From Amycolatopsis thailandensis (GTDB lineage Bacteria; Actinomycetota; Actinomycetes; Mycobacteriales; Pseudonocardiaceae): a DNA stretch of 64,000 bases. This document shows, one piece after another, positions 3,670 to 63,356 of this stretch (position 1 is its first letter; every line of letters begins with the position of its first letter). Location of the stretch: NCBI RefSeq assembly GCF_002234405.1, contig NZ_NMQT01000025.1:1-64000 (forward strand). Reading direction: 5' to 3'. Position numbers and translations under genes: made by a program. The notes beneath the pieces are model-generated. The model was not told the DNA's origin. It searched no databases and was given only the letters and a program-made list of their open reading frames with translations.

Positions 3670-3722
3670 GCCCCCAATGTGGCATTGGGGACGCTCAATG
3701 TCCCCAATGCCACATTGGGGGC
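3670..3722. repeat. Dispersed palindrome, family B copy 1
   Basis: This is a perfect inverted repeat with 22-bp arms (3670-3691 and 3701-3722) and a 9-nt loop (CGCTCAATG). Each arm contains the submotif CCCCAATG-TGG-CATTGGGG, itself a near-palindrome. The same element occurs at 35691 and 63215. It lies between the divergent genes at 3596 (minus) and 3807 (plus), so here it is not a terminator for a flanking gene unless transcription enters from outside. Confidence 0.9.
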
Positions 3723-7607: not shown

Positions 7608-7642
7608 GGGAGGTTCCCTTCGATCACAAGGAGGTCACAGCC

Positions 7643-7661
7643 TTAGGCAAGGCTTACCTAT
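7643..7661. promoter_or_regulatory. Iron box 1 between the divergent heme genes
   Basis: TTAGGCAAGGCTTACCTAT matches the 19-bp DtxR/IdeR consensus at 15 positions. It lies 36 bp upstream of the minus-strand secreted protein start (7607), in a position to block that promoter. Confidence 0.75.
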
Positions 7662-7672
7662 CAGGGAGTGAA

Positions 7673-7691
7673 TATGGTTAGCCTTGCCTAA
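7673..7691. promoter_or_regulatory. Iron box 2 overlapping the hmuT start codon
   Basis: GGTTAGCCTTGCCTAA within this interval matches the consensus (reverse orientation) at 15 of 19 positions. Its last base is the A of the hmuT ATG, so there is no room for a Shine-Dalgarno sequence. The hmuT mRNA is probably leaderless or begins inside the operator. Confidence 0.75.
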
Positions 7692-8782
7692 TGTTGTCAA
7701 GGGGGTTGCTGTCCACGGTCGCCGTGCTCCTCGCCATCGTTGTCAGCGGTTGCTCGTCACCGCCGTTGGCGACCACGAAAGCGGCCGAAACCGGAGCTGA
7801 CCTGCAGCCGCTTTCACAGGTCAAGCCCCTGTCGGAGCCGAAGAACCAGGTCGGCCCGAGTACCGCGAGGCTCGCGCAGGCGGACATCACCGGCGGGAAA
7901 CCGGCGGTCCAGCACCTCCCGGCGGCGATCACGGATCACCAGGGCACGCCGGTCACGGTGACCGACACCAGCCGGATCCTCGCCTTCGACATGTCCGGCA
8001 CGCTCGCCGCGACCGTGTTCGGCCTCGGCCTCGGCGGCAACGTCGTCGGACGGGACGTCTCCACCGGCTTCCCGTCGGCCAGGGACCTGCCGCTGGTCAC
8101 CGTGAACGGCCACCGGCTCAACGCCGAGGCGATCCTGGCGTTGCGCCCGACCGTGGTGATCACCGACACGACGCTGGGCCCCTGGGACGTCGTGCTCCAG
8201 TTGCGCGCGTCCGGGGTGCCCGTGGTCGTCGTCGACGCGAAGCGTTCGATGGACAACGTCGGTGACATCGTCCGTCAGGTCGCCGCCGCGCTGGGCGTTC
8301 CCGAAGCGGGCGAAAGCCTCGCCACCAGGCTCGCGGCCGACGTCGACGCCAAAAAGGCGGAGATCGCGAAGCTCGCTCCCGCCGATCCGGCCCGCAAACT
8401 CCGCGTCGTCTTCCTCTACATGCGCGGACAAGCCGGCGTGTATCACCTGTTCGGCAAGGGATCCGGCGCCGATTCGCTGATCGGCGCGCTCGGCGCGGTC
8501 GACGTCGCCACCCAGGCGGGGATCGAGGGGATGCGCCCGGTCAACCCGGAGGCGCTGGCCAAGGCCAAGCCCGACGTGATCCTCATGATGACGAAAGGTC
8601 TCGAATCCGTCGGCGGGATCGACGGCGCGCTCCAGGTGCCCGGGGTGGCGCAGACGCCCGCCGGGCAGCACCGCCGCGTCGTCGACATGGCGGACTCGCA
8701 GATCCTGAGCTTCGGACCGCTCACCGCCGGCGTGCTCGACGCGCTGGCACGGGCCCTCTACGCGCCGGACGACGCCGGATGA
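7691..8782 (+). CDS. hmuT: Hemin ABC transporter substrate-binding lipoprotein
   Basis: This 363-residue lipoprotein has a lipobox VVSGC (Cys21). It belongs to the helical-backbone metal/heme-binding proteins (BtuF/ChuT/HmuT type): a first lobe with RILAFDMSGTLAATVFGLGL and an ILALRPTVVITD strand, a long linking helix, and a second lobe with GKGSGADSLIGALGAVD and ALAKAKPDVILMM. It would hand heme from surface proteins to HmuU. The ATG follows directly from an iron box, with no RBS. It overlaps hmuU by ATGA. Family membership is firm; heme as ligand rests on the HtaA and heme oxygenase neighbours. Confidence 0.9.
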   Translation: MLSRGLLSTVAVLLAIVVSGCSSPPLATTKAAETGADLQPLSQVKPLSEPKNQVGPSTARLAQADITGGKPAVQHLPAAITDHQGTPVTVTDTSRILAFDMSGTLAATVFGLGLGGNVVGRDVSTGFPSARDLPLVTVNGHRLNAEAILALRPTVVITDTTLGPWDVVLQLRASGVPVVVVDAKRSMDNVGDIVRQVAAALGVPEAGESLATRLAADVDAKKAEIAKLAPADPARKLRVVFLYMRGQAGVYHLFGKGSGADSLIGALGAVDVATQAGIEGMRPVNPEALAKAKPDVILMMTKGLESVGGIDGALQVPGVAQTPAGQHRRVVDMADSQILSFGPLTAGVLDALARALYAPDDAG

Positions 8783-13343: not shown

Positions 13344-13557
13344 CGGTCGTGAGTGGCTAGGACGGTTAGAGCGGACCGGCAACCTACCCACGCGTGACCT
13401 GCGTGAGAGTGGCGTTTCCGCGTGTGCCGGGATCGAAGCAGGCCTTCTTCGCTGCCTTGAGGGCAGGGTTCGGACCGGTCAGGGCCCGAGTCTCCACAGG
13501 GGACACTTAGCGGCGATTGAGCGTCCGATTTGTGCCCGTATGGGATGTTCTGTGCAG

Positions 13558-13605
13558 GGTCGTGAGTGATAAGGAGGGTTAGAACCCTCTTTATCACTCA
13601 CGACC
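13558..13605. repeat. GTGAGTGATAA hairpin
   Basis: 23-bp arms (13558-13580 and 13583-13605) have one G-T mismatch and a 2-nt centre. The arm begins GGTCGTGAGTGATAA. A diverged single arm starting GGTCGTGAGTGGCTAGGA lies immediately after the htaA stop at 13346-13363, which suggests an older, partly eroded copy of the same element. Confidence 0.85.
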
Positions 13606-13689
13606 CCTTCGCAAAGCCAGGCAAAGTTCCCAAAACGGGCGTTCCGGCTGGCATAGGTGTCTCATGTGGACGGCCGAAGTCGCGATCTA

Positions 13690-13744: not shown

Positions 13745-13799
13745 TGTCATGAGGGGTCCCCATGGGACGGAATTCGTCCCATGGGGACCCCTCATGACA
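13745..13799. repeat. Dispersed palindrome, family C copy 1
   Basis: Perfect 25-bp arms (13745-13769, 13775-13799) enclose the 5-nt loop GAATT. The outer 17 bases TGTCATGAGGGGTCCCC are identical to those of the element at 45592, but the inner stem (ATGGGACG) differs from that copy (TTAAGAC) and is still fully self-complementary. It ends 13 bp before the heme oxygenase stop (minus strand), where it can act as that gene's terminator. Confidence 0.92.
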
Positions 13800-19221: not shown

Positions 19222-19587
19222 ATGGCCGGTGACCCGCTCGTTTCACTCAGACGGCTCTGCCTCGCGCTGCCGGAGACCTCCGAGCGCCTCAGCCACGGCG
19301 AGCCGGCGTGGTTCGTGCGCGGCAAGAAGTCGTTCGTCAAATACGCCGACCGTCATCACGACGACAAGGTCGCGTTCTGGTGCCCGGCGCCGCCCGGCGC
19401 GCAGGAAGAACTGGTGGGCGCCGAGCCGGAACGGTTCTTCCGGCCGCCCTACGTCGGGCACAGCGGCTGGATCGGGGTCCGGGTGGACGTCGACGTCGAC
19501 TGGGCCGAGATCGAGCGGATCGTCACCGACGCCTATTGCCTCGTGGCGCCGAAATCCCTGATCGCGCAGGTCCCCGGACGCACGTAA
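19222..19587 (+). CDS. MmcQ/YjbR-family DNA-binding protein
   Basis: This 121-residue protein has the YjbR/CyaY-like double-wing fold signature: an N-terminal helix with CLALPETSERLSHGEPAWFV, the strand KSFVKYAD, KVAFWCPAP and PYVGHSGWIGVRVDVDVDW. The family is often annotated DNA-binding, without a proven role. The ATG at 19222 was preferred to a longer in-frame start at 19120 that would overlap the divergent gene. The stop codon TAA lies inside a hairpin (19579-19620). Confidence 0.82.
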   Translation: MAGDPLVSLRRLCLALPETSERLSHGEPAWFVRGKKSFVKYADRHHDDKVAFWCPAPPGAQEELVGAEPERFFRPPYVGHSGWIGVRVDVDVDWAEIERIVTDAYCLVAPKSLIAQVPGRT

Positions 19588-19620
19588 TGGCCCCTCCACC
19601 GGAAGGGGCCATTACGTGCG
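19579..19620. terminator. 17-bp-arm palindrome between convergent genes
   Basis: Arms CGCACGTAATGGCCCCT (19579-19595) and its exact complement (19604-19620) flank the loop CCACCGGA. It contains the stop codon of the upstream gene and ends 3 bp before the stop of sepH on the other strand, so it can terminate both. It shows the same style as the dispersed palindromes but only one copy is in the window. Confidence 0.88.
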
Positions 19621-22749: not shown

Positions 22750-22791
22750 AACGGACCGGTCCGGCCTCGGCCCACCTCGGCCCGGTGTCGC

Positions 22792-22834
22792 GAAAGCCAC
22801 TTTCGCAACGTTGAAGGTTGCGAAAGTGGCTTTC
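22792..22834. repeat. GAAAGCCACTTTCGCAAC hairpin
   Basis: Perfect 18-bp arms at 22792-22809 and 22817-22834 flank the 7-nt loop GTTGAAG. Each arm also contains the internal partial palindrome GAAAGCCACTTTC. It is not adjacent to any gene end. Confidence 0.88.
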
Positions 22835-22902
22835 ACAACGCGTTCTGCCGAGACAGAGCCGGTACCTGCGGACGGCTTGGCTCAGCCGGCCAGGTGGCCC
22901 CG

Positions 22903-23028
22903 GCCGAACTCGCGTGATCGGAGCCGTGACTCACGTGCTTGGAGGCCGAACTCATGTGCTTGGAGCCGTAACTCGCGTGATCCGGCTTCAAGCACACGAG
23001 TTACGGCGTCAAGCACGCGAGTTACGGC
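22903..23028. repeat. Array of ~21-bp GCCGTAACTCGCGTGCTTG units, direct and inverted
   Basis: Four forward units, with variants CCGAACTCGCGTGATCGGAG, CCGTGACTCACGTGCTTGG, CCGAACTCATGTGCTTGGAG and CCGTAACTCGCGTGATCC, are followed by two inverted units reading CAAGCACACGAGTTACGGC and CAAGCACGCGAGTTACGGC. The third forward unit and the inverted units can form a long hairpin. Confidence 0.85.
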
Positions 23029-23151
23029 TGGGTGCACCTGCCGCGGGCCGGACCAGTGGGAGCGTAAGCGCGACATAAGCGACTTCGCTTACCGCGCCGG
23101 AATCGCCGCCTCCGTAGAAATCGGGTCGCCAAGACGACCGAAGGAGCAGCG

Positions 23152-26694: not shown

Positions 26695-26704
26695 CTGGCG
26701 TTTC

Positions 26705-26753
26705 GTCCTCTGGATGCGGTGGTTCGCACTGCCAACTACCGCATCCAGAGGAC
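26705..26753. repeat. Dispersed palindrome, family A copy 1
   Basis: 16-bp perfect arms GTCCTCTGGATGCGGT (26705-26720) and ACCGCATCCAGAGGAC (26738-26753), with loop region GGTTCGCACTGCCAACT. It begins 10 bp after the permease stop and can terminate that operon. The same arms recur at 34958 and 47480. Confidence 0.92.
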
Positions 26754-26786
26754 TAACTGCGTGGTGGCGGTGGGTAATCTCGCCGG

Positions 26787-27986
26787 GTGCTGGTGGGATT
26801 GTCGGGGCGGAAACTCGCGGGGGCGCTGCTCGCGCTCGAAGTCGTCGTGGTCGGCGTGCTGTTCACCATGAAGGTTTTCGACGGCCAGGACCTCGAGGTC
26901 TACGTCGGCGGTTCCCGGCTGCTCCTCGATTCGGGAGACCTGTACGGCACCTGGGTCCAGACGCACGGCGGCTGGCTGCCCTTCACGTACACGCCGTTCG
27001 CGGCGGCGGTGTTCGTACCCGGCACGCTGCTGTCCACGGCGATCGCGACGAGGCTGGTCGGGCTCGCGTCGATCATCGCGGGCGGGATCGTCGTGTACCT
27101 CTTCGTCGCGACGCTCAACGGCTCGCTCACCGACCGCGCGAACGTCCGGGGTCGCGCCATCGCCGTCCTGGCCGCGATCGGGGCGCAGGCCGTCGGCGGG
27201 ATCATGGAGCCGGTCCGGTCGACGCTCGGCTTCGGCCAGATCAACACCCTGCTGATGCTGATGGTCGTGCTCGACGCCCTGCTGCCGGGCCGCGCGCGTA
27301 CGAAGGGACTGCTGATCGGCGTCGCCGCCGCGATCAAGCTTACCCCGGCGTTCTTCATCCTGTTCTTCTTGTTCCGCAAGGACTTCCGCTCCGCCGCCCG
27401 GGTCGTCGCCGGGTTCCTCGGCGCCGGGCTGCTGATGTTCGCGTTCGCGCCCGGCGCGTCGGCGAAGTTCTGGACGGACGTCCTCTTCGACACCAGCCGC
27501 ATCGGCGATCGCGGCTACGTCGGCAACCAGTCGCTGCGCGGGATGCTGGCGCGATTCGGGTTCGGCTCGGCGGAAGAGATCGTCTGGGTGCTGGCCGCTG
27601 TCGTGGTGGTCGCGCTGACCGCGTTCGTGATCGCGCGCGTCGTGGAACCGGTGTTCGCGCTGACCGCCTGCGCGATCGGCGGCCTGCTGGTCTCGCCCGT
27701 GACCTGGACGCACCACTGGATCTGGTGCGTGCCGATCCTCGTGCTGCTGGTGTGGCTGCGATCGGCGGTTTCGTACGTGCTCGCCGCCGTGACGGCGGCG
27801 CTGTTCGTGATCGCGCCGATGTGGCTCGCGCCGCGGCCCGCCGGGAGCTTCGGCTGGTGGCTGGCGACGGAATCCTTCGTCCTCTACGGCTTGTTGCTCC
27901 TAGTGCTGGCCGCAGTCTTCCCCAAGTACGTGAAGGCCCCCTTCATTGCGCCTGGCGCAATGAAGGGGGCCTTCACGGAAAGCTAG
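26787..27986 (+). CDS. GT87-family mannosyltransferase (DUF2029)
   Basis: This 399-residue polytopic glycosyltransferase of the GT-C fold has about 10-11 membrane segments. The first extracytoplasmic loop carries FDGQDLEVYVGG, with the acidic residues expected of polyprenyl-phosphate-mannose-dependent alpha-(1,2)-mannosyltransferases, followed by WLPFTYTPFAAAVF and a conserved GFGQINTLLMLMVVLDAL. It probably adds mannose to lipoglycans or other envelope glycans. Odd feature: the last 18 residues (VKAPFIAPGAMKGAFTES) are encoded by a perfect palindrome (27929-27977), so the original C-terminus seems to have been replaced. Confidence 0.87.
   Translation: MLVGLSGRKLAGALLALEVVVVGVLFTMKVFDGQDLEVYVGGSRLLLDSGDLYGTWVQTHGGWLPFTYTPFAAAVFVPGTLLSTAIATRLVGLASIIAGGIVVYLFVATLNGSLTDRANVRGRAIAVLAAIGAQAVGGIMEPVRSTLGFGQINTLLMLMVVLDALLPGRARTKGLLIGVAAAIKLTPAFFILFFLFRKDFRSAARVVAGFLGAGLLMFAFAPGASAKFWTDVLFDTSRIGDRGYVGNQSLRGMLARFGFGSAEEIVWVLAAVVVVALTAFVIARVVEPVFALTACAIGGLLVSPVTWTHHWIWCVPILVLLVWLRSAVSYVLAAVTAALFVIAPMWLAPRPAGSFGWWLATESFVLYGLLLLVLAAVFPKYVKAPFIAPGAMKGAFTES
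27929..27977. repeat. Dispersed palindrome, family D copy 1, inside coding sequence
   Basis: Perfect 24-bp arms around a single central base (27953): CGTGAAGGCCCCCTTCATTG and onward. It lies within the last codons of the mannosyltransferase gene, whose TAG stop follows it at 27984, and 11 bp before the stop of the convergent serC gene. It shares the GAAGG-CCCCTTCATTGC core with the element at 39689. Confidence 0.9.
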
Positions 27987-27987
27987 C

Positions 27988-29127
<1,140 letters not shown>

Positions 29128-34858: not shown

Positions 34859-34957
34859 ACGTCGATCGTGCTTGGGGCGCCGGGTGCCCCGGGACGTCCG
34901 CAGGACTGAACCCGGCTGTCAACCGATCGGTGGACACCGGTGTCTCCTCCTCCCGCT

Positions 34958-35013
34958 TTTAGTCCTCTGGATGCGGTACATGCTTGTTGGAGTGCTGCAT
35001 CCAGAGGACTAAA
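34958..35013. repeat. Dispersed palindrome, family A copy 2
   Basis: 17-bp perfect arms TTTAGTCCTCTGGATGC (34958-34974) and its complement (34997-35013), with an inner CGGTACATG loop. On the minus strand its TTTAG provides the TAG stop codon of the TetR gene (35009-35011). It sits between that gene and the downstream ABC operon, so it can isolate the two transcripts. Confidence 0.92.
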
Positions 35014-35599
35014 CGCGGGGGGTGAGCAGGGTGCGGACGGAGGTTTCGAGGGACGGCAGTAGTGCGGCCGGGTCGGTCGAAGTGAGCATCCGGTTCGCGA
35101 AGCCGTCCGACAGGGCCAGGACGGCGTCGGCCAGGTCGGAGGCCACGAGGTCGTCCCGGACATCGCCTGCCGACTGGGCCTTCGAGATGTACTGCGCCGT
35201 TATCTCCGCGAGTTCGTCGTAGCCGGTGCGGATGAACTCGGCCCACGACGGCAGGACGGCGGCGCGGGCGGTGAAGGCGTTGATGACGATCACCTCCGCG
35301 CGGCGCTGTTCGTCGAGCGGCATCGCCTCGACGAGCAGCCGCAGCAGCAGGTCCAGCAGGTTCCCGGACTGGTCGAGGGTGTTCCAGCGCTGCTCCAGGA
35401 ACTCGCTCGTCATGTCGAGGGCGAAGCGGAACAGATCTTCCTTGGTGGAGAAGTACTTCTGCACCGCGCCACCGGATACGCCCGCTTCCGCGGCGACCGA
35501 GCGCACGCTCACGGCCTCGACGCCTTCACGCGCGACGATCCGCAGGAGGGCGCCGGCGATCTCCCGGCGGCGTTCGGTCCGGTCCACGATCTTCGGCAC
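35009..35599 (-). CDS. TetR-family regulator, divergent from MFS transporter
   Basis: This 196-residue protein has an N-terminal HTH with GVEAVSVRSVAAEAGVSGGA followed by VQKYFSTKEDLFRFALDM, and a ligand domain. The GTG at 35599 was chosen since upstream sequence in frame includes the palindrome at 35691. It is divergent from the MFS gene at 35854; between them a small palindrome GAATACAGTCGTATCC (35818-35833) overlaps a -10-like TAGAAT and may be its operator. Its stop codon is inside the family A hairpin. Confidence 0.88.
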   Translation of the reverse strand: MPKIVDRTERRREIAGALLRIVAREGVEAVSVRSVAAEAGVSGGAVQKYFSTKEDLFRFALDMTSEFLEQRWNTLDQSGNLLDLLLRLLVEAMPLDEQRRAEVIVINAFTARAAVLPSWAEFIRTGYDELAEITAQYISKAQSAGDVRDDLVASDLADAVLALSDGFANRMLTSTDPAALLPSLETSVRTLLTPRV

Positions 35600-35690: not shown

Positions 35691-35749
35691 GGTGCCCCCA
35701 ATGTGGCATTGGAGACGCTCAGTGTCCCCAATGCCACATTGGGGGCACC
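35691..35749. repeat. Dispersed palindrome, family B copy 2
   Basis: Arms of about 28 bp (GGTGCCCCCAATGTGGCATT and onward, 35691-35718; complement 35722-35749) have one mismatch near the loop. The core is the same CCCCAATGTGGCATTGGGG unit and ACGCTCA(A/G)TGT centre as at 3670. It lies between divergent genes (TetR and MFS), not at a 3' end. Confidence 0.92.
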
Positions 35750-39081: not shown

Positions 39082-39695
39082 CCTCCGCCAGACGCCCTCG
39101 CCGGATGTCGCCGCAGGCGCGCCGGGAGGACCTGATCCGCGCCGCGCTGGCCCTGTTCGGCTCACGCGCGCCCGAACTCGTCACGGTGGACGACATCATC
39201 GCCCGCGCCGAGGTTTCGCGGCCGCTGTTCTACCGGTACTTCTCAAGCCTGCGGGAACTGCAGGTCGAGGCGCTGAAAACGGTCACCGAAGGGCTCATCG
39301 ACGGCCTGGCCGGGCTGGAGGAAGGGCCGCCCGAAACGCGGCTGCGGGCCGCCGTCCGCGGGCTGATCGACGTGGCCGACCATTACCGCGCGGGGTACGT
39401 CGCACTGCTGCGCAGCGGTTCGGTGATCGCGACGTCGGAGACGGACGCGGCGATCGACGAGGTGCGCAACCGCGCCGTCGAGCTCATTCTCGGCGCGCTG
39501 GGCGTGCCGGAACCTTCGCCGATGCTCCTGCTGACCTTGCGCTGCTGGACCGCCGTGGTCGAGGGCGCTCTGCTGAGCTGGCTTCAGGAACGCGCTGTGC
39601 CGCGCGAGGTGCTCGACAGCTGGCTGGTCGACCAGCTGACGGCGATGCTGGCGACCACCGCTGGGCACGACTCCTCGGTCCCGCGACTGCAATGA
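39078..39695 (+). CDS. TetR-family regulator of the ephD operon
   Basis: This 205-residue protein has HTH VTVDDIIARAEVSRPLFYRY and a C-terminal ligand domain. The GTG start overlaps the hydrolase/SDR stop, so enzyme and regulator are co-expressed and autoregulation through the operator at 37352-37379 is likely. The stop codon TGA (39693-39695) is contributed by the family D palindrome. Confidence 0.88.
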   Translation: MTSARRPRRMSPQARREDLIRAALALFGSRAPELVTVDDIIARAEVSRPLFYRYFSSLRELQVEALKTVTEGLIDGLAGLEEGPPETRLRAAVRGLIDVADHYRAGYVALLRSGSVIATSETDAAIDEVRNRAVELILGALGVPEPSPMLLLTLRCWTAVVEGALLSWLQERAVPREVLDSWLVDQLTAMLATTAGHDSSVPRLQ

Positions 39696-39741
39696 AGGGG
39701 CCTTTCATAGCAAAATTTGCTATGAAAGGCCCCTTCATTGC
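39689..39741. repeat. Dispersed palindrome, family D copy 2
   Basis: Perfect 26-bp arms around one central base (39715): GCAATGAAGGGGCCTTTCAT and onward. It contains the TetR stop codon and ends 5 bp before the citrate synthase stop on the other strand, so it is a bidirectional terminator candidate. The GCAATGAAGG(G)GGCC part matches the copy at 27929 in inverted order. Confidence 0.92.
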
Positions 39742-41504: not shown

Positions 41505-41798
41505 GTGCGACCAGGAGAGATCATCACCGGCGACGGGCCGGTCGAACTGAACCCCGGCAGGCCGCGGGTCCGGCTGCTCGTGCGGAACCTCGGCGACCGG
41601 CCCGTGCAGGTCGGCTCGCACTACCATTTCGCGGCGGTCAATCCCGGACTCGAATTCGACCGGGGGGCCGCGCGAGGGCATCGGCTCGACGTGCCCGCGG
41701 GAACTTCGGTGCGTTTCGAACCGGGCGTCGAACGCGAAGTCGACCTCGTCCCGCTGGCCGGGGACCGCGCGGTGCCCGGATTGCGCAAGGAGTCCTGA
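41505..41798 (+). CDS. ureB: Urease subunit beta
   Basis: This 97-residue subunit starts with GTG 12 bp after ureA. It has the family core [17 protein letters not shown] and [15 protein letters not shown]. The stop overlaps the ureC start by one base (TGATG). Confidence 0.97.
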
Positions 41799-43519
41799 TG
41801 CCGTCGATCGATCGCGAGCGCTACGCCGAACTCTTCGGCCCGACCACCGGCGACAAAATCCGTCTCGCGGACACGGATCTGCTCATCGAGGTCACCGAGG
41901 ACCGCAGTATGGGCCCGTCCGGCAGCGGCGACGAGGTGCTGTTCGGCGGCGGCAAGGTGATCCGCGAATCCATGGGCCAGGGGATGGCGACCCGGGCCGA
42001 GGGCGCGCCGGACCTGATCATCACCGGCGCGGTGATCCTGGACCACTGGGGGATCGTCAAGGCCGACGTCGGCGTCCGGGACGGCCGGATCGTCGGCATC
42101 GGCAAGGCAGGCAACCCGGACACGATGGACGGGGTGGATCCGGCGCTGGTCGTCGGCCCGTCCACGGAGGTGCTGTCCGGCAACGGGAAGATCCTGACCG
42201 CGGGCGGGATCGACTGCCACGTCCACTTCATCTGCCCACAGCTGACCGACACCGCTCTCGCGTCCGGGCTCACCACGCTGGTCGGCGGCGGGACCGGGCC
42301 GGTCGAGGGCAGCAAGGCCACCACCGTCACGCCCGGTGCGTGGAACCTCGGCCGGATGCTGCGGGCGATGGACGGCCAGCCGGTCAACGTCCTGTTGCTG
42401 GGCAAGGGGAACACCGTCCGGCACGAGGCACTGCGCGAACAGCTCGCCGCCGGCGCGGGCGGGTTCAAACTGCACGAGGACTGGGGCAGCACCCCCGCCG
42501 CGATCGACGCCTGCCTCACCGTCGCCGACGAATCCGGCGTCCAGGTGGCGATCCACACCGACACGCTGAACGAGGCAGGCTTCCTGGAGTCCACTGTGGA
42601 CGCCATCGGCGGCCGGTCGATCAACGCGTACCACACCGAAGGCGCGGGCGGCGGGCACGCGCCGGACATCATCCAGGTCGCCGGGCTGCCCAACATCCTG
42701 CCGTCGTCGACGAATCCGACGCGCCCGCACACCGCGAACACCCTCGACGAGCATCTCGACATGCTCGTCGTCTGCCATCACCTGAACCCGTCCGTACCCG
42801 AGGACCTGGCGTTCGCCGAAAGCCGGATCCGGCCGACGACCATCGCGGCCGAGGACGTCCTGCACGACCTCGGCGCGATTTCGATGATGAGCTCGGATTC
42901 GCAGGCGATGGGCCGGATCGGCGAGGTGATCATCCGGACCTGGCAGACCGCGCACGTGATGAAACGGCGGCGCGGCGCATTGCCGGGCGACGGTGCCGCC
43001 GACAACCTGCGGGCTCGTCGCTATGTCGCCAAATACACCATCAACCCCGCGATCGCGCACGGCATGGACCGCGAGATCGGCTCGGTGGAGGTCGGGAAAC
43101 TCGCGGATCTCGTGCTGTGGGAACCGAAGTTCTTCGGCGTCCGGCCGCATGTCGTGCTCAAAGGCGGATTCCCCGCGTGGGCGGCGATGGGCGACGCGAA
43201 CGCGTCCATCCCGACGCCGCAACCGGTGCTGGCGCGGCCGATGTTCGGTGCGGACCCGGGGGTCGCGGCCGCGAGCAGCTTCCATTTCGTCGCGCCGGAA
43301 GCGCTGGAAAACGGGGTGGCGGAACGGTTCGGCATCGCGCGGAAACTCGTGCCGATCGCGAACACCCGCTCGCGCGGCAAGGCGGACATGGTGCTCAACG
43401 ACGCCACACCGGACATCCGGGTGGAGCCGGACAGTTTCGCCGTGCACGTCGACGGCGAGCTCATCGAACCGAAACCGGTGACCGAACTGCCCATGGCGCA
43501 AAGGTACTTTTTGTTTTGA
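41798..43519 (+). CDS. ureC: Urease subunit alpha (catalytic)
   Basis: This 573-residue catalytic subunit has every nickel-site residue in place: His141 and His143 (CHVHF), carbamylated Lys224 ([10 protein letters not shown]), His253, His279 (HTEGAGGGH) and Asp367 (SSDSQAMGR). The mobile flap Cys326-His327 (VVCHHLN) is also present. Full length, uniform codon use. Followed directly by ureF (TGATGG). Confidence 0.98.
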
Positions 43520-44193: not shown

Positions 44194-44890
44194 GCATGGT
44201 CATGGACACGGTCACGTCCACCCGGTCAACTTCGACCCGACCGCCGCGGAGCCCGATCACTACGACCCGGCGCCGACCGCGGGCCGCGCGTACCGGATCG
44301 GCATCGGCGGGCCGGTGGGCAGCGGGAAGACCGCGCTCACCGCGGCGCTGTGCCGGGCGCTCGGCGACGAGGTGAACCTCGCCGTCGTCACCAACGACAT
44401 CTACACCACCGAGGACGCCGATTTCCTGCGCAAGGCCGGGGTGCTCGACCCGGAGCGGATCGAGGCCGTGCAGACCGGCGCGTGCCCGCACACCGCGATC
44501 CGCGACGACATCACCGCGAACCTCGACGCCGTCGAACGGCTGGAGGAGCGGTTCCCCGGGCTGGATCTGGTGATCATCGAAAGCGGCGGGGACAACCTCA
44601 CCGCGGTGTTCAGCCGGGGGCTCGCCGACAGTCAGGTCTTCGTGGTCGACGTCGCGGGCGGCGACAAGGTGCCGCGCAAGGGCGGGCCGGGCGTGACGAC
44701 GGCGGATCTGCTGGTGATCAACAAGATCGACATCGCGCATCTGGTCGGCGCGGACATGGACGTGATGACCTCGGACGCGCACCGGATGCGAGGCGAACTC
44801 CCCGTGATCACGCAGTCCCTTGTGGACACTCCGAACGCGCCCGCGGTCGCGGACTGGGTGCGCTCGCTGCTCCCGGTCAACGCGGGGTGA
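44183..44890 (+). CDS. ureG: Urease accessory GTPase UreG with His-rich N-terminus
   Basis: This 235-residue SIMIBI GTPase has P-loop GGPVGSGKT (about 42-50), the nickel-binding CPH at 101-103 ([12 protein letters not shown]), ESGGDNL and NKID. The N-terminal [13 protein letters not shown] supplies extra nickel ligands. No ureE gene is present in the operon, so this tail may do part of the nickel-storage job of UreE. The reading frame opens with TTG at 44183 inside ureF; an unusual but coupled start. Confidence 0.93.
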
Positions 44891-45600
44891 AGGCGCACGC
44901 GCGGCTGACCGCCTGCTTCGAGGGCGGCCGGACCGTTCTGCGTGAGCTGCGCTCGATGGCGCCGCTCACACTGCTCCCCAAGCGGGGCACCGGTGCGTCG
45001 GCGGTGGTGCACCTGGTCAACTCGGCGACCTCGCCGTTGGGTGGCGACGAGCTGAAGCTGACCATCCGCGTCGGCCCCGGTGCTTCGCTGCGGATTTCCG
45101 GTGTCGCGGCGACCATCGCGCTCCCCGGGTTGCACGGTGAGGGCAGCTCGTCCCTTGTGGACGTCGTCGTGGAGGCGGGTGGCTCGCTGGAGTATCTGCC
45201 GGAGCCGACCGTCGTGACCGCCCGGGCCCGGCACTCTGCTGTGCTTCGGGCCGCTTTGGCGGAGGATGCCTGTCTGCACACGCGGGAGGTGCTCGTACTC
45301 GGCCGGGCGGGTGAGCAGCCCGGGTCTCTGGTGACCACGCAGCACGTGACGCGGGGTGAAGTACCGGTACTTCGGCAGACGCTGGAGATCGGGGACTCCA
45401 TTTTGGACTCCAGTCTGGCGCATCTGGCCGGACGGCGGGTGCTGGCGACCGATCTGGTCGTCGGTGGCCCTTCGGTTCCTGAAGCTTGCGGCGACTGGTG
45501 GTCTCGCACCTCGCTTGCCGCCGGAGGGATACTCACGACGTCGTTGGCGCCGGATGCCGTGACCGCGCTCCGGGTTTTCGACGGCGCCCAGGTGTCATGA
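44887..45600 (+). CDS. ureD: Urease accessory protein UreD
   Basis: This 237-residue chaperone bridges UreF/UreG to the apo-urease. Recognisable parts are [40 protein letters not shown] and the strand-rich centre with [21 protein letters not shown]. The start is GTG overlapping the ureG stop. The stop codon TGA (45598-45600) lies inside the palindrome at 45592-45648, which closes the operon. Confidence 0.92.
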
Positions 45601-45648
45601 GGGGTCCCCTTAAGACAAAATTCGTCTTAAGGGGACCCCTCATGACAC
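45592..45648. repeat. Dispersed palindrome, family C copy 2
   Basis: Perfect 25-bp arms (45592-45616, 45624-45648) enclose the loop AAAATTC. The outer TGTCATGAGGGGTCCCC is identical to the copy at 13745 while the inner stem TTAAGAC differs and is compensated on the other arm. It supplies the ureD stop codon and ends 20 bp from the convergent lipase stop. Confidence 0.93.
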
Positions 45649-47475: not shown

Positions 47476-47479
47476 CCCC

Positions 47480-47541
47480 GCGTTTCGTCCTCTGAATGCG
47501 GTAGATGCACGCGCAAGTACCGCATCCAGAGGACGAAATGC
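47480..47541. repeat. Dispersed palindrome, family A copy 3
   Basis: 24-bp arms GCGTTTCGTCCTCTGAATGC and onward (47480-47503) and 47518-47541 have two wobble mismatches. It lies between the convergent TetR (stop 47475) and cvnD (stop 47543), one base from the latter. The right arm keeps the family sequence GCATCCAGAGGAC, while the left arm carries GAATGC, so the two arms have started to diverge. Confidence 0.9.
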
Positions 47542-47542
47542 G

Positions 47543-62519: not shown

Positions 62520-63221
62520 ATGGTCGACTCGGCCCAGTTGCTCCCGGTCGCGCGGGCGGCGCAGGTTCTGGACATTTCACGAGAGCGCGTCCGCGAACTC
62601 GTGCACGGCGGCAGGCTCGACGCGATTCGGATCGGCCGCGAACTGCTGATCGATGCCCGATCGGTCGAGCATCGGAAGAGCGTGGTGAAGCCCGCTGCCG
62701 GCCGCCCGCTTTCCGCGCGGATGGCCTGGGGATTCTTGTGGTCGCTGAGCGGCTGTCACCCGTCGTGGATCTCGCCGTCCGAGCGGGTCCGGCTCAAGCG
62801 CTACGCGCAGGAACGCGAGCCCGCTCAATGGCCGCGCCTGCTCTCCGGCCGTGCGCGCGTGTACCGCGTCCGGATGCTGGCGGGCCCGCTCGCACGGCTG
62901 CGGGAGGACCCGCATGCTGTCGTCAGCGGCCCGGCCGCCGCTGGTCATTACGGTGCCGATTTGATGGCGGGGGGCGCGGACGAGGAGTTCTACGTGGACG
63001 CCGCCCGTTTCGAGGACCTCGCGCGGTCACGACGGCTTCGACTGGACAGTGCGGAGCCCAACGCGGTGATCCGCGTTCCGGCCCTGTCTGGAGTTCTTCG
63101 TCCGCCGGGATCGGACGGCTACGCGATCCCGGCGGCCGTCGCGGCGGATCTGCTCGATGCCGGGGATGAGCGCTCTGTCCTTGCGGCGCAACAACTTCTC
63201 ACCCTTACAGTAAGCCGGTGA
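62520..63221 (+). CDS. Excisionase-type HTH protein, possibly antitoxin-like
   Basis: This 233-residue protein has an N-terminal MerR/excisionase-like HTH (LPVARAAQVLDISRERVREL, then LDAIRIGRELLIDARSVEHR) and an uncharacterised C-terminal domain (YAQEREPAQWPRLLSGRARV ... YYVDAARFEDLARSRRLRLD-type segment). The layout resembles AbiEi-like antitoxins or regulators, but no toxin gene follows. GAAGGGAG precedes the ATG. The stop TGA is formed at the edge of the family B palindrome; coding-like sequence continues in the same frame after it, so the gene may be truncated. Confidence 0.72.
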   Translation: MVDSAQLLPVARAAQVLDISRERVRELVHGGRLDAIRIGRELLIDARSVEHRKSVVKPAAGRPLSARMAWGFLWSLSGCHPSWISPSERVRLKRYAQEREPAQWPRLLSGRARVYRVRMLAGPLARLREDPHAVVSGPAAAGHYGADLMAGGADEEFYVDAARFEDLARSRRLRLDSAEPNAVIRVPALSGVLRPPGSDGYAIPAAVAADLLDAGDERSVLAAQQLLTLTVSR

Positions 63222-63283
63222 TGTCCCCAATGTGGCATTGGGGACGCTCAATGTCTCCAATGTGGCATTGGGGACATCACCGG
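63215..63283. repeat. Dispersed palindrome, family B copy 3
   Basis: Outer perfect 18-bp arms CCGGTGATGTCCCCAATG (63215-63232) and its complement (63266-63283). Inside are two CCAATG-TGG-CATTGGGG units in direct order, unlike the other copies where the second unit is inverted. It contains the stop codon of the HTH gene. Confidence 0.9.
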
Positions 63284-63356
63284 TTTCGTCGCCTTCGTCC
63301 GCGAGATCCTCGGTGCCGCGTACGCCGAGGCGCTAGACGCCGATCGCGGACGCTGA
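63284..63356 (+). pseudogene. Possible detached 3' end of the HTH gene
   Basis: In the same frame as the HTH gene after the palindrome, the sequence reads about 24 codons, FVAFVREILGAAYAEALDAD and three more, then TGA at 63354. Third positions are nearly all G or C in the first 16 codons, like a real gene, and the peptide would be a plausible amphipathic helix. The last 24 bases overlap the convergent acyl-CoA synthetase gene. This is inference; it may be chance. Confidence 0.4.

Follow-up and report, generated by a model that had tools for sequence, protein, structure and literature searches.

The window analyzed here is a 64,000-nucleotide stretch of DNA of the soil bacterium Amycolatopsis thailandensis (positions 1 to 64,000 of contig NZ_NMQT01000025.1). 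Its ureD gene runs into a palindrome of family F1 that supplies the TGA stop codon at 45598-45600, and the final ureD codons, GTG TCA TGA, lie inside the element. The palindrome reads GTGTCATGAGGGG...CCCCTCATGACAC with an arm complementarity of 96%. Family labels F1-F12 are our own, and clusters built on shared 8-mers merge some of them (F1 with F2, F3 with F4). The features referred to below are as follows; palindromes are given no strand.

44886-45600, plus strand: ureD, Pfam UreD (PF01774), start approximate
45592-45648, no strand: F1 palindrome with a 55-bp core, TGTCATGA...TCATGACA, at 45593-45647
39101-39695, plus strand: TetR gene, ending in an F3 palindrome
39689-39741, no strand: F3 palindrome, giving the last Gln codon and the TGA (39693-39695) of the TetR gene
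34949-35022, no strand: F9 palindrome, in which TAG 35009-35011 terminates a minus-strand TetR gene
63212-63286, no strand: F7 palindrome plus flank extension, 55-bp core beginning at 63222
19579-19620, no strand: orthologous hairpin overlapping the TAA (19585-19587) of a YjbR/MmcQ-like gene
26783-27986, plus strand: GT87 gene, containing the palindrome at 27929-27977
27929-27977, no strand: F4-type palindrome, read in frame close to the C-terminal end of GT87
13745-13799, no strand: F1 palindrome
13557-13606, no strand: F10 palindrome, GTCGTGAGTG...
26702-26756, no strand: F9 palindrome, about 10 nt past a stop
47479-47542, no strand: F9 palindrome, filling the convergent gap 47475/47543
3670-3722, no strand: F7 palindrome in a divergent gap
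35691-35749, no strand: F7 palindrome in a divergent gap
22787-22839, no strand: F6 palindrome with GCGAAAGCCACTTTCGC arms in a divergent gap

An earlier note on this DNA had named five genes that stop inside long palindromes, and all five stops were confirmed at their positions. Two of the five cases are weak support. The hairpin at 19579-19620 belongs to no repeat cluster in the 8-mer clustering and is orthologous and nearly unchanged in all seven of the closest relatives examined (G005, G006, G007, G013, G014, G015 and G017); this hairpin of the YjbR gene is stable among relatives, in contrast to the fast-changing family palindromes. The HTH gene TGA (63219-63221) falls in the flank extension immediately before the 55-bp F7 core, and the palindrome at 63212-63286, with 85% complementarity, receives no score from the stricter detector. 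The element ending the minus-strand TetR gene (34949-35022) was found in other detection runs and was missed by the faster detector used for the genome sample. Several relatives carry other palindromes at the end of the plus-strand TetR gene.

The translated copy at 27929 described in the same note was likewise found in frame, among the last residues of the GT87 gene; this palindrome also lies 10 nt past the stop of the convergent gene 27988-29086. The GT87 in-frame site holds the same or a different palindrome subfamily in six relatives (G005, G006, G007, G014, G015 and G017). Other repeats were seen in the window. An F11-type repeat cluster of CGCGTGATC / CGTGCTTGGAG units, bigger and less regular than the other families, occupies 22932-23040 in a divergent gap. 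An imperfect repeat, TTAGGCAAGGCTTACC / GGTTAGCCTTGCCTAA, lies between divergent genes at 7637-7697 and resembles an actinobacterial iron box. The sole match above the gathering score in an Rfam search of the window was the 5' ureB sRNA (5_ureB_sRNA, RF02514, 69.3 bits) at 41958-42254 on the minus strand, opposite the plus-strand gene 41793-43519 and upstream of ureD; it lies away from the palindromes, and no Rfam family was matched at any of them.

The generality of stop supply was examined in 13 A. thailandensis contigs comprising 1,205,628 bases (1.206 of 9.35 Mb), in which palindrome density is biased upward because the contigs were picked for carrying pattern hits. The 1,133 genes were called by a seven-state codon-model HMM and not taken from annotation, such that stops follow the frame and starts are approximate. 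At a score of at least 15, 211 palindromes were detected, compared to one in a 3-mer-shuffled control. A stop codon was wholly or partly inside only 17 of the 211 (15 codons wholly within 14 elements and three codons partly), and the proposal that palindromes generally provide the stop of the gene before them therefore failed. With the same detector, three of 12 palindromes in the window contain a stop (P = 0.06 for at least three at the sample rate).

The usual case is a palindrome immediately after the stop, mostly between convergent genes. Of 298 stop-to-element distances, 125 were 0-20 nt past the stop and 18 were negative. Counts per 10 nt were 13 from -10 to 0, 69 from 0 to 10, 56 from 10 to 20 and 24 from 20 to 30, with about 3-5 remaining from 60 to 300 nt. 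Convergent gaps held 107 elements (4.5/kb), tandem gaps 75 (1.1/kb) and divergent gaps 12 (0.27/kb), with a further eight in coding sequence and nine beside contig ends. Where a gap left 150 bp or more of room, 34 of 97 elements were within 30 nt of a stop, compared to 13.8 expected. The suggested class of gene-end-targeting elements stands insofar as dispersed palindromes do sit at gene ends. That stop supply is their purpose is not supported: 69 elements start 0-10 nt after the stop and 13 start 0-10 nt before its end.

Whether stop overlaps exceed chance, as had been suggested, was assessed with a shuffle in which each of 182 usable elements was moved at random within its own gap. The 14 whole-stop overlaps observed exceeded the 7.1 ± 1.0 expected when no entry into genes was permitted and fell below the 33.5 expected when 10 nt of entry was allowed; the verdict on enrichment depends upon the null chosen, since the two expectations bracket the observation. 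The overlaps look like the extreme of a distribution packed closely behind stops, not like an enrichment in their own right.

Where an element contains the stop, the end of the protein is often affected. C-termini were compared in orthologue pairs from A. azurea (G005) and G014. Among the 23 pairs in which the stop lay in an element, which include the conserved YjbR case and other unchanged cases, C-terminal length was equal in 52% and the last three residues were identical in 35%. The corresponding values were 94% and 75% where an element lay 0-40 nt past the stop (137 pairs), and 93% and 78% where the gene had no element (509 pairs). This comparison, one of the checks proposed in the earlier note, showed that stop-overlap genes differ more (52% of 23 vs 94% of 137), and the element alters the protein end in about half of the stop-inside pairs.

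The ureD locus provides a specific example. The stop is the TGA of a local palindrome in A. thailandensis and in four of the seven closest relatives examined (G005, G006, G013 and G015), with three kinds of palindrome involved. UreD ends in VFDGAQVS in A. thailandensis, VFESP in A. azurea and A. keratiniphila, VFEEG in G013 and PLENP in A. regifaucium, all with stops inside a palindrome; the stop is outside the palindrome in G007, G014 and G017. In a wider survey, the ureD stop was inside a palindrome at six of 37 loci of named genomes (36 Amycolatopsis and one Prauserella, drawn from 58 loci of which the other 21 belong to other genera). The six are azurea, keratiniphila, pittospori, regifaucium, xylanica and RYN_118, the last at the very edge. 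The right flank of the F1 element at ureD, CACGGAC, is like the edge of the F5 element at the same place in A. keratiniphila and others. A single F5 element marks the ureD end in A. keratiniphila. The A. azurea gap is about 1.4 kb (locus L086, about 5.8-7.3 kb) and contains an extra stretch between two F5 palindromes, which recombination between gene-end palindromes may have brought in.

These changed C-termini, together with a bias of TGA toward the edges of the family arms (bases 2-12 in 208 of 332 arms vs bases 12-22 in 45 of 332), are what would be anticipated of dedicated stop-and-terminator cassettes, selected to supply stops and targeting gene ends for that purpose. The low number of stop-containing elements in the sample argues against that explanation, as does the fact that most elements begin past the gene's own stop; furthermore, several families have in common an arm sequence that includes the outer TGAARGG. 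We consider such cassettes very improbable.

The palindromes fall into repeat families. Nine clusters with at least three members, defined by shared 8-mers, take in 166 of the 211 palindromes. Detected extents ranged from 41 to 146 bp at a score of at least 18, with 55 and 53 bp the commonest. Intact-ended copies were collected from A. thailandensis contigs and from the relatives' window blocks using regular expressions that permit other lengths. Every intact-ended copy was 55 bp in F1 (16 copies), F2 (12), F3 (5), F6 (7) and F7 (6), as were 11 of 12 F5 copies (the other being 54 bp), and all 14 F4 copies were 57 bp. F9 copies measured 64-65 bp (17) and F10 copies 46 bp (10). Direct repeats at the element edges were not in excess in nine families with 5-17 copies each, and thus target duplications were not indicated. 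Several families start with TG and finish with CA, and F1 and F2 share their outer 8 bases. Inspection by eye of family edges (TGTCATGA, TGCAATGA, GTCCGTGA, TGTTGCGA and others) revealed no common tag of the GTAG or CGTC kind that marks one end of a 20-40-bp REP unit; in F9, CGTC occurs seven bases in from the edge.

Palindrome density at score 15 or higher in 6.7-kb ureD loci was highest, at 26.6 per 100 kb, across nine loci of the orientalis clade, with 10.6 across 27 loci of other Amycolatopsis and 2-8 across 21 loci of the other genera sampled. Contigs C82, C88, C32, C363, C364, C323 and C113 of the A. thailandensis assembly begin within approximately 140 bases of a family palindrome, and since these seven do so, the elements may break assembly.

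Copy number of individual families varied sharply between congeners. A. thailandensis contains 141 F1 arms, corresponding to about 70 copies of a 55-bp palindrome with a variable centre. Elsewhere, G032 had 95 arms (of those listed, most differ in the centre base), G056 had 15 and five other genomes had one or two each. In 72 of 79 congeners the F1 arm was absent; one of these is A. azurea, a near relative with a median gene-end flank identity of 95.6% to A. thailandensis. F2 showed a different distribution, with 31 arms in A. thailandensis, 155 in G043, 149 in G006, 121 in G014, 107 in G070 and 68 in G046, and none in 57 of 79 congeners. The palindromes are mobile and amplify in species-specific bursts.

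Whether a gene end is occupied is conserved between species; which palindrome occupies it often is not. Twenty A. thailandensis F1 sites were located in two close relatives, A. azurea and G014; sites 8 and 15 were unreadable in both, and for sites 3 and 4 the flanks matched weakly in G014 and not at all in A. azurea. Another palindrome was present at 12 of the 16 readable sites in A. azurea, with no palindrome at the remaining four (sites 14, 16, 18 and 19), and at 17 of the 18 readable sites in G014 at a marking threshold of 11, six of these being F2. Site 14 had no palindrome in either relative. Site 2 has matching flanks on both sides of the A. thailandensis F1 and the G014 F2; at sites 9 and 16, the match is largely one-sided.

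The same pattern of exchanged palindromes was read at window gene ends in congeners. The gene end carrying the F1 element at 13745 has F10 in A. azurea, G013 and G017, F4 in G007 and F2 in G014, with no palindrome of score 13 or higher at the orthologous end in G006 and G015. In G006, the convergent gap 47475/47543 contains an F2 copy that is imperfect; G017 has another family there, and G007 has no palindrome.

Concordance extended to gaps in general, scored as occupied at a palindrome score of 15. Tandem gaps were occupied in A. azurea in 14 of 17 cases where A. thailandensis was occupied vs one of 186 where it was not, and convergent gaps in 19 of 30 vs two of 25. In G014, the corresponding counts were 15 of 19 vs three of 186 for tandem gaps and 26 of 32 vs five of 30 for convergent gaps. 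Fisher p values ranged from 2e-5 to 7e-18, with the compared regions having been picked around A. thailandensis F1 sites and the two relatives' gaps for one A. thailandensis gap not being independent. Five other relatives, compared in the window only, pointed in the same direction with small numbers, with the exception of G017 tandem gaps (0 of 1).

Among 74 co-occupied convergent and tandem gaps in A. azurea and G014, F1 gaps included, the palindromes were the same in 23, related in 11 and different in 40, where "different" denotes an 8-mer threshold under which F1/F2 pairs count as different despite forming one cluster (six of the 17 G014 cases). When F1 gaps were left out, shared 8-mers classed 23 of the 47 remaining gaps as same, 10 as related and 14 as different, with some other "different" pairs (gaps 41, 224 and 839) having the appearance of subfamilies.

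Conserved occupancy and maintained near-perfect symmetry are both consistent with ordinary terminators drifting in place, through compensatory changes and template switches that copy one arm to the other, so that the families merely look different. In some pairs, for example at TetR 39695 in A. thailandensis and G006, the flanks are unchanged and the palindromes look like versions of a single element. Drift does not account for 141 F1 arms in one genome and none in A. azurea, and the species-specific bursts contradict it for F1 and F2. Unrelated families also occur at one gene end (F1, F10, F4 and F2 at 13745), and because of this and the F1 burst, copying from elsewhere is needed. Drift in place is, in our judgment, quite improbable.

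Prior occupancy was then compared between F1 sites and other gaps. Among tandem gaps of at least 60 bp, the relative was occupied at five of five F1 gaps vs 10 of 72 others in A. azurea (p = 1.5e-4) and at six of six vs 12 of 70 in G014 (p = 8.5e-5). Among convergent gaps of all lengths, the counts were six of 10 vs 15 of 45 in A. azurea (p = 0.11) and 10 of 11 vs 21 of 51 in G014 (p = 0.003); at 60 bp or longer they were six of six vs 12 of 19 (p = 0.10) and 10 of 10 vs 19 of 27 (p = 0.06), respectively. The excess of prior occupancy at F1 sites is strong in tandem gaps and weaker in convergent gaps.

These comparisons bear upon the alternative that insertion is random and copies survive only behind genes, with no targeting of hairpins and with shared occupancy reflecting a small number of tolerant gaps. 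The scarcity of elements in coding sequence and divergent gaps fits that account, as do the F1 sites that have no palindrome in a relative, the weak excess in convergent gaps and the lack of clear debris. The complete occupancy of the longer tandem F1 gaps argues against it, as does the observation that elements hug the stop even in long gaps. On balance, random insertion with selective survival appears unlikely.

The manner of replacement was evaluated from the flanks. Both flanks were conserved in one of 33 different pairs vs nine of 20 same-family pairs (A. azurea and G014), and exact in-place exchange was rejected as a general rule on the basis of the former count. Since exact exchange in place is rare, insertion followed by later loss of the old element fits as well. 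Orphan half-palindromes were not clearly enriched near intact palindromes (nine of 32 within 60 nt vs 39 of 211 intact palindromes with a neighbour). Candidate remnants recognized by eye are the CACGGAC right flank at ureD, an F9-like arm beside F2 at approximately 77,490 of C57 and an F9 arm beside F4 in G014.

A search for a mobilizing enzyme was also conducted. The Y1/RAYT transposase domain (PF01797), the family of REP and IS200/IS605 systems, was found in none of nine Amycolatopsis genomes, including A. thailandensis and the burst genomes; the same search was positive in five of 14 control genomes, and the A. thailandensis assembly is 96.8% complete. The elements share with REP/RAYT systems a high copy number of extragenic palindromes biased toward gene 3' ends; the Y1 transposase of such a system was absent from these genomes. 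The fixed-length target site duplication of a MITE of a DDE insertion sequence was likewise not found. No transposase flanked by an arm pair was found among unpaired arms in the 1.2 of 9.3 Mb covered. Two F1 pairs approximately 1.07-1.08 kb apart, on C29 and C57, were considered as autonomous elements and set aside, the enclosed genes showing no sign of a transposase: the gene enclosed by the C57 pair stays in place in A. azurea and G014 amid other palindromes, and the gene enclosed by the C29 pair (108697-109017) has no Pfam match.

At the RNA level, the elements are predicted to form stable hairpins, with a median fold energy of -45 kcal/mol (201 elements) and a hairpin length of 24-26 bp in the three elements folded. 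A T-tract after the element was not usual (2.07 vs 1.97 T per 12 nt in controls), with six or more T downstream in 2.2% of elements vs 0.5% of controls. The elements differ accordingly from canonical intrinsic terminators, in which a T-tract follows the GC-rich hairpin. Judging from their anatomy, the elements would most likely act as a bidirectional terminator or 3'-end protector.

The explanation that we favour, and regard as reasonably probable, is that mobile palindromes settle at and replace existing gene-end hairpins, so that position is inherited and sequence is exchanged, with a probable bidirectional 3'-end or terminator role. The palindromes are copies from many families of tiny mobile elements, for the most part about 50-65 bp long and in seven cases near-fixed at 55 or 57 bp. 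Amplification comes in species-specific bursts, and copies lie chiefly within the first few tens of bases past a stop, above all between convergent genes. A new copy would mostly take a gene end already holding a palindrome and then replace or convert the older one. We infer that this replacement is the route of insertion and that an enzyme carries it out; insertion would most likely proceed by cutting or copying through the existing hairpin, the older one disappearing either immediately or afterwards. The pattern would be maintained by selection that favours a hairpin at gene ends and disfavours insertion in genes or promoters. A transcript arriving from either side would form a long hairpin directly after its stop, which most likely ends transcription or protects the 3' end in both directions. 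In many families a TGA lies a few bases in from either edge and becomes the gene's stop where it is in frame and the element lies slightly upstream; in such cases the last one or two residues are encoded by the element, as an occasional by-product.

A more specific mechanism, possible but one that we rather doubt, is a gene-end exchange system in which a non-Y1 enzyme recognizes hairpins of about 55 bp whatever their sequence and swaps in the copy of the amplifying family. If true, the system would periodically rewrite terminators, and sometimes stop codons, genome-wide.

Under the favoured replacement of gene-end hairpins by mobile palindromes, these gene ends are of interest for several reasons. 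Their rewriting can be seen beside gene-end coding flanks that are about 95% identical between the species, and it constitutes a natural experiment on how interchangeable 3'-end signals are. It is also a case of small elements altering protein C-termini, and it offers a trail to a mobilizing enzyme in Amycolatopsis, a genus with well-known antibiotic producers.

The combination of near-fixed-length families, species-specific bursts and palindrome exchange at conserved gene ends was not seen in the literature searched. Titles and abstract openings from a full-text search of literature outside subscription journals contained no description of Amycolatopsis palindromes. Individual features have precedents in other systems. 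EFAR of Enterococcus faecalis inserts into stem-loops, deleting most of the target and retaining part of the stem; it comes from another phylum and comprises larger modular elements, and stem remnants are not clearly enriched here.

The Efa family is described at the 3' ends of coding sequences (PMC1590033). The same source describes stable stem-loops lying no more than 50 bp past the stop, with a bias toward convergent genes in every bacterium that it surveyed; compared to such factor-independent terminators (PMC1590033), the elements described here form repeat families, show bursts and exchange, and have no usual T-tract. The likeness to REP/BIME sequences (PMC3733652) lies in high-copy palindromes behind genes, mostly in convergent or tandem gaps. 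The ends of GTAG REPs often supply a stop codon (PMC3733652); the stop-codon effect seen here is minor and has a published precedent in REPs. As compared to REP/BIME as presented there (PMC3733652), the present elements are near-perfect palindromes of about 55 bp that are exchanged at the same gene end, with no GTAG tag seen at unit ends inspected by eye and no Y1_Tnp/RAYT in nine of nine genomes.

YPAL/RU-2 of Yersinia is a mobile palindrome whose targets span or adjoin dyad symmetry, and it is said to affect transcripts of upstream genes (PMC2229807). YPAL is given there as about 168 bp with 3-26-bp target duplications (PMC2229807), whereas the elements here are mostly 50-65 bp with no duplications. 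Enterobacterial RU-1 is a mobile repeat fused to gene 3' ends that removes the normal stop and changes the C-terminus (PMC2759123). RU-1 is described as 127 bp long and translated over much of its length (PMC2759123), whereas here a stop at the element edge usually ends translation.
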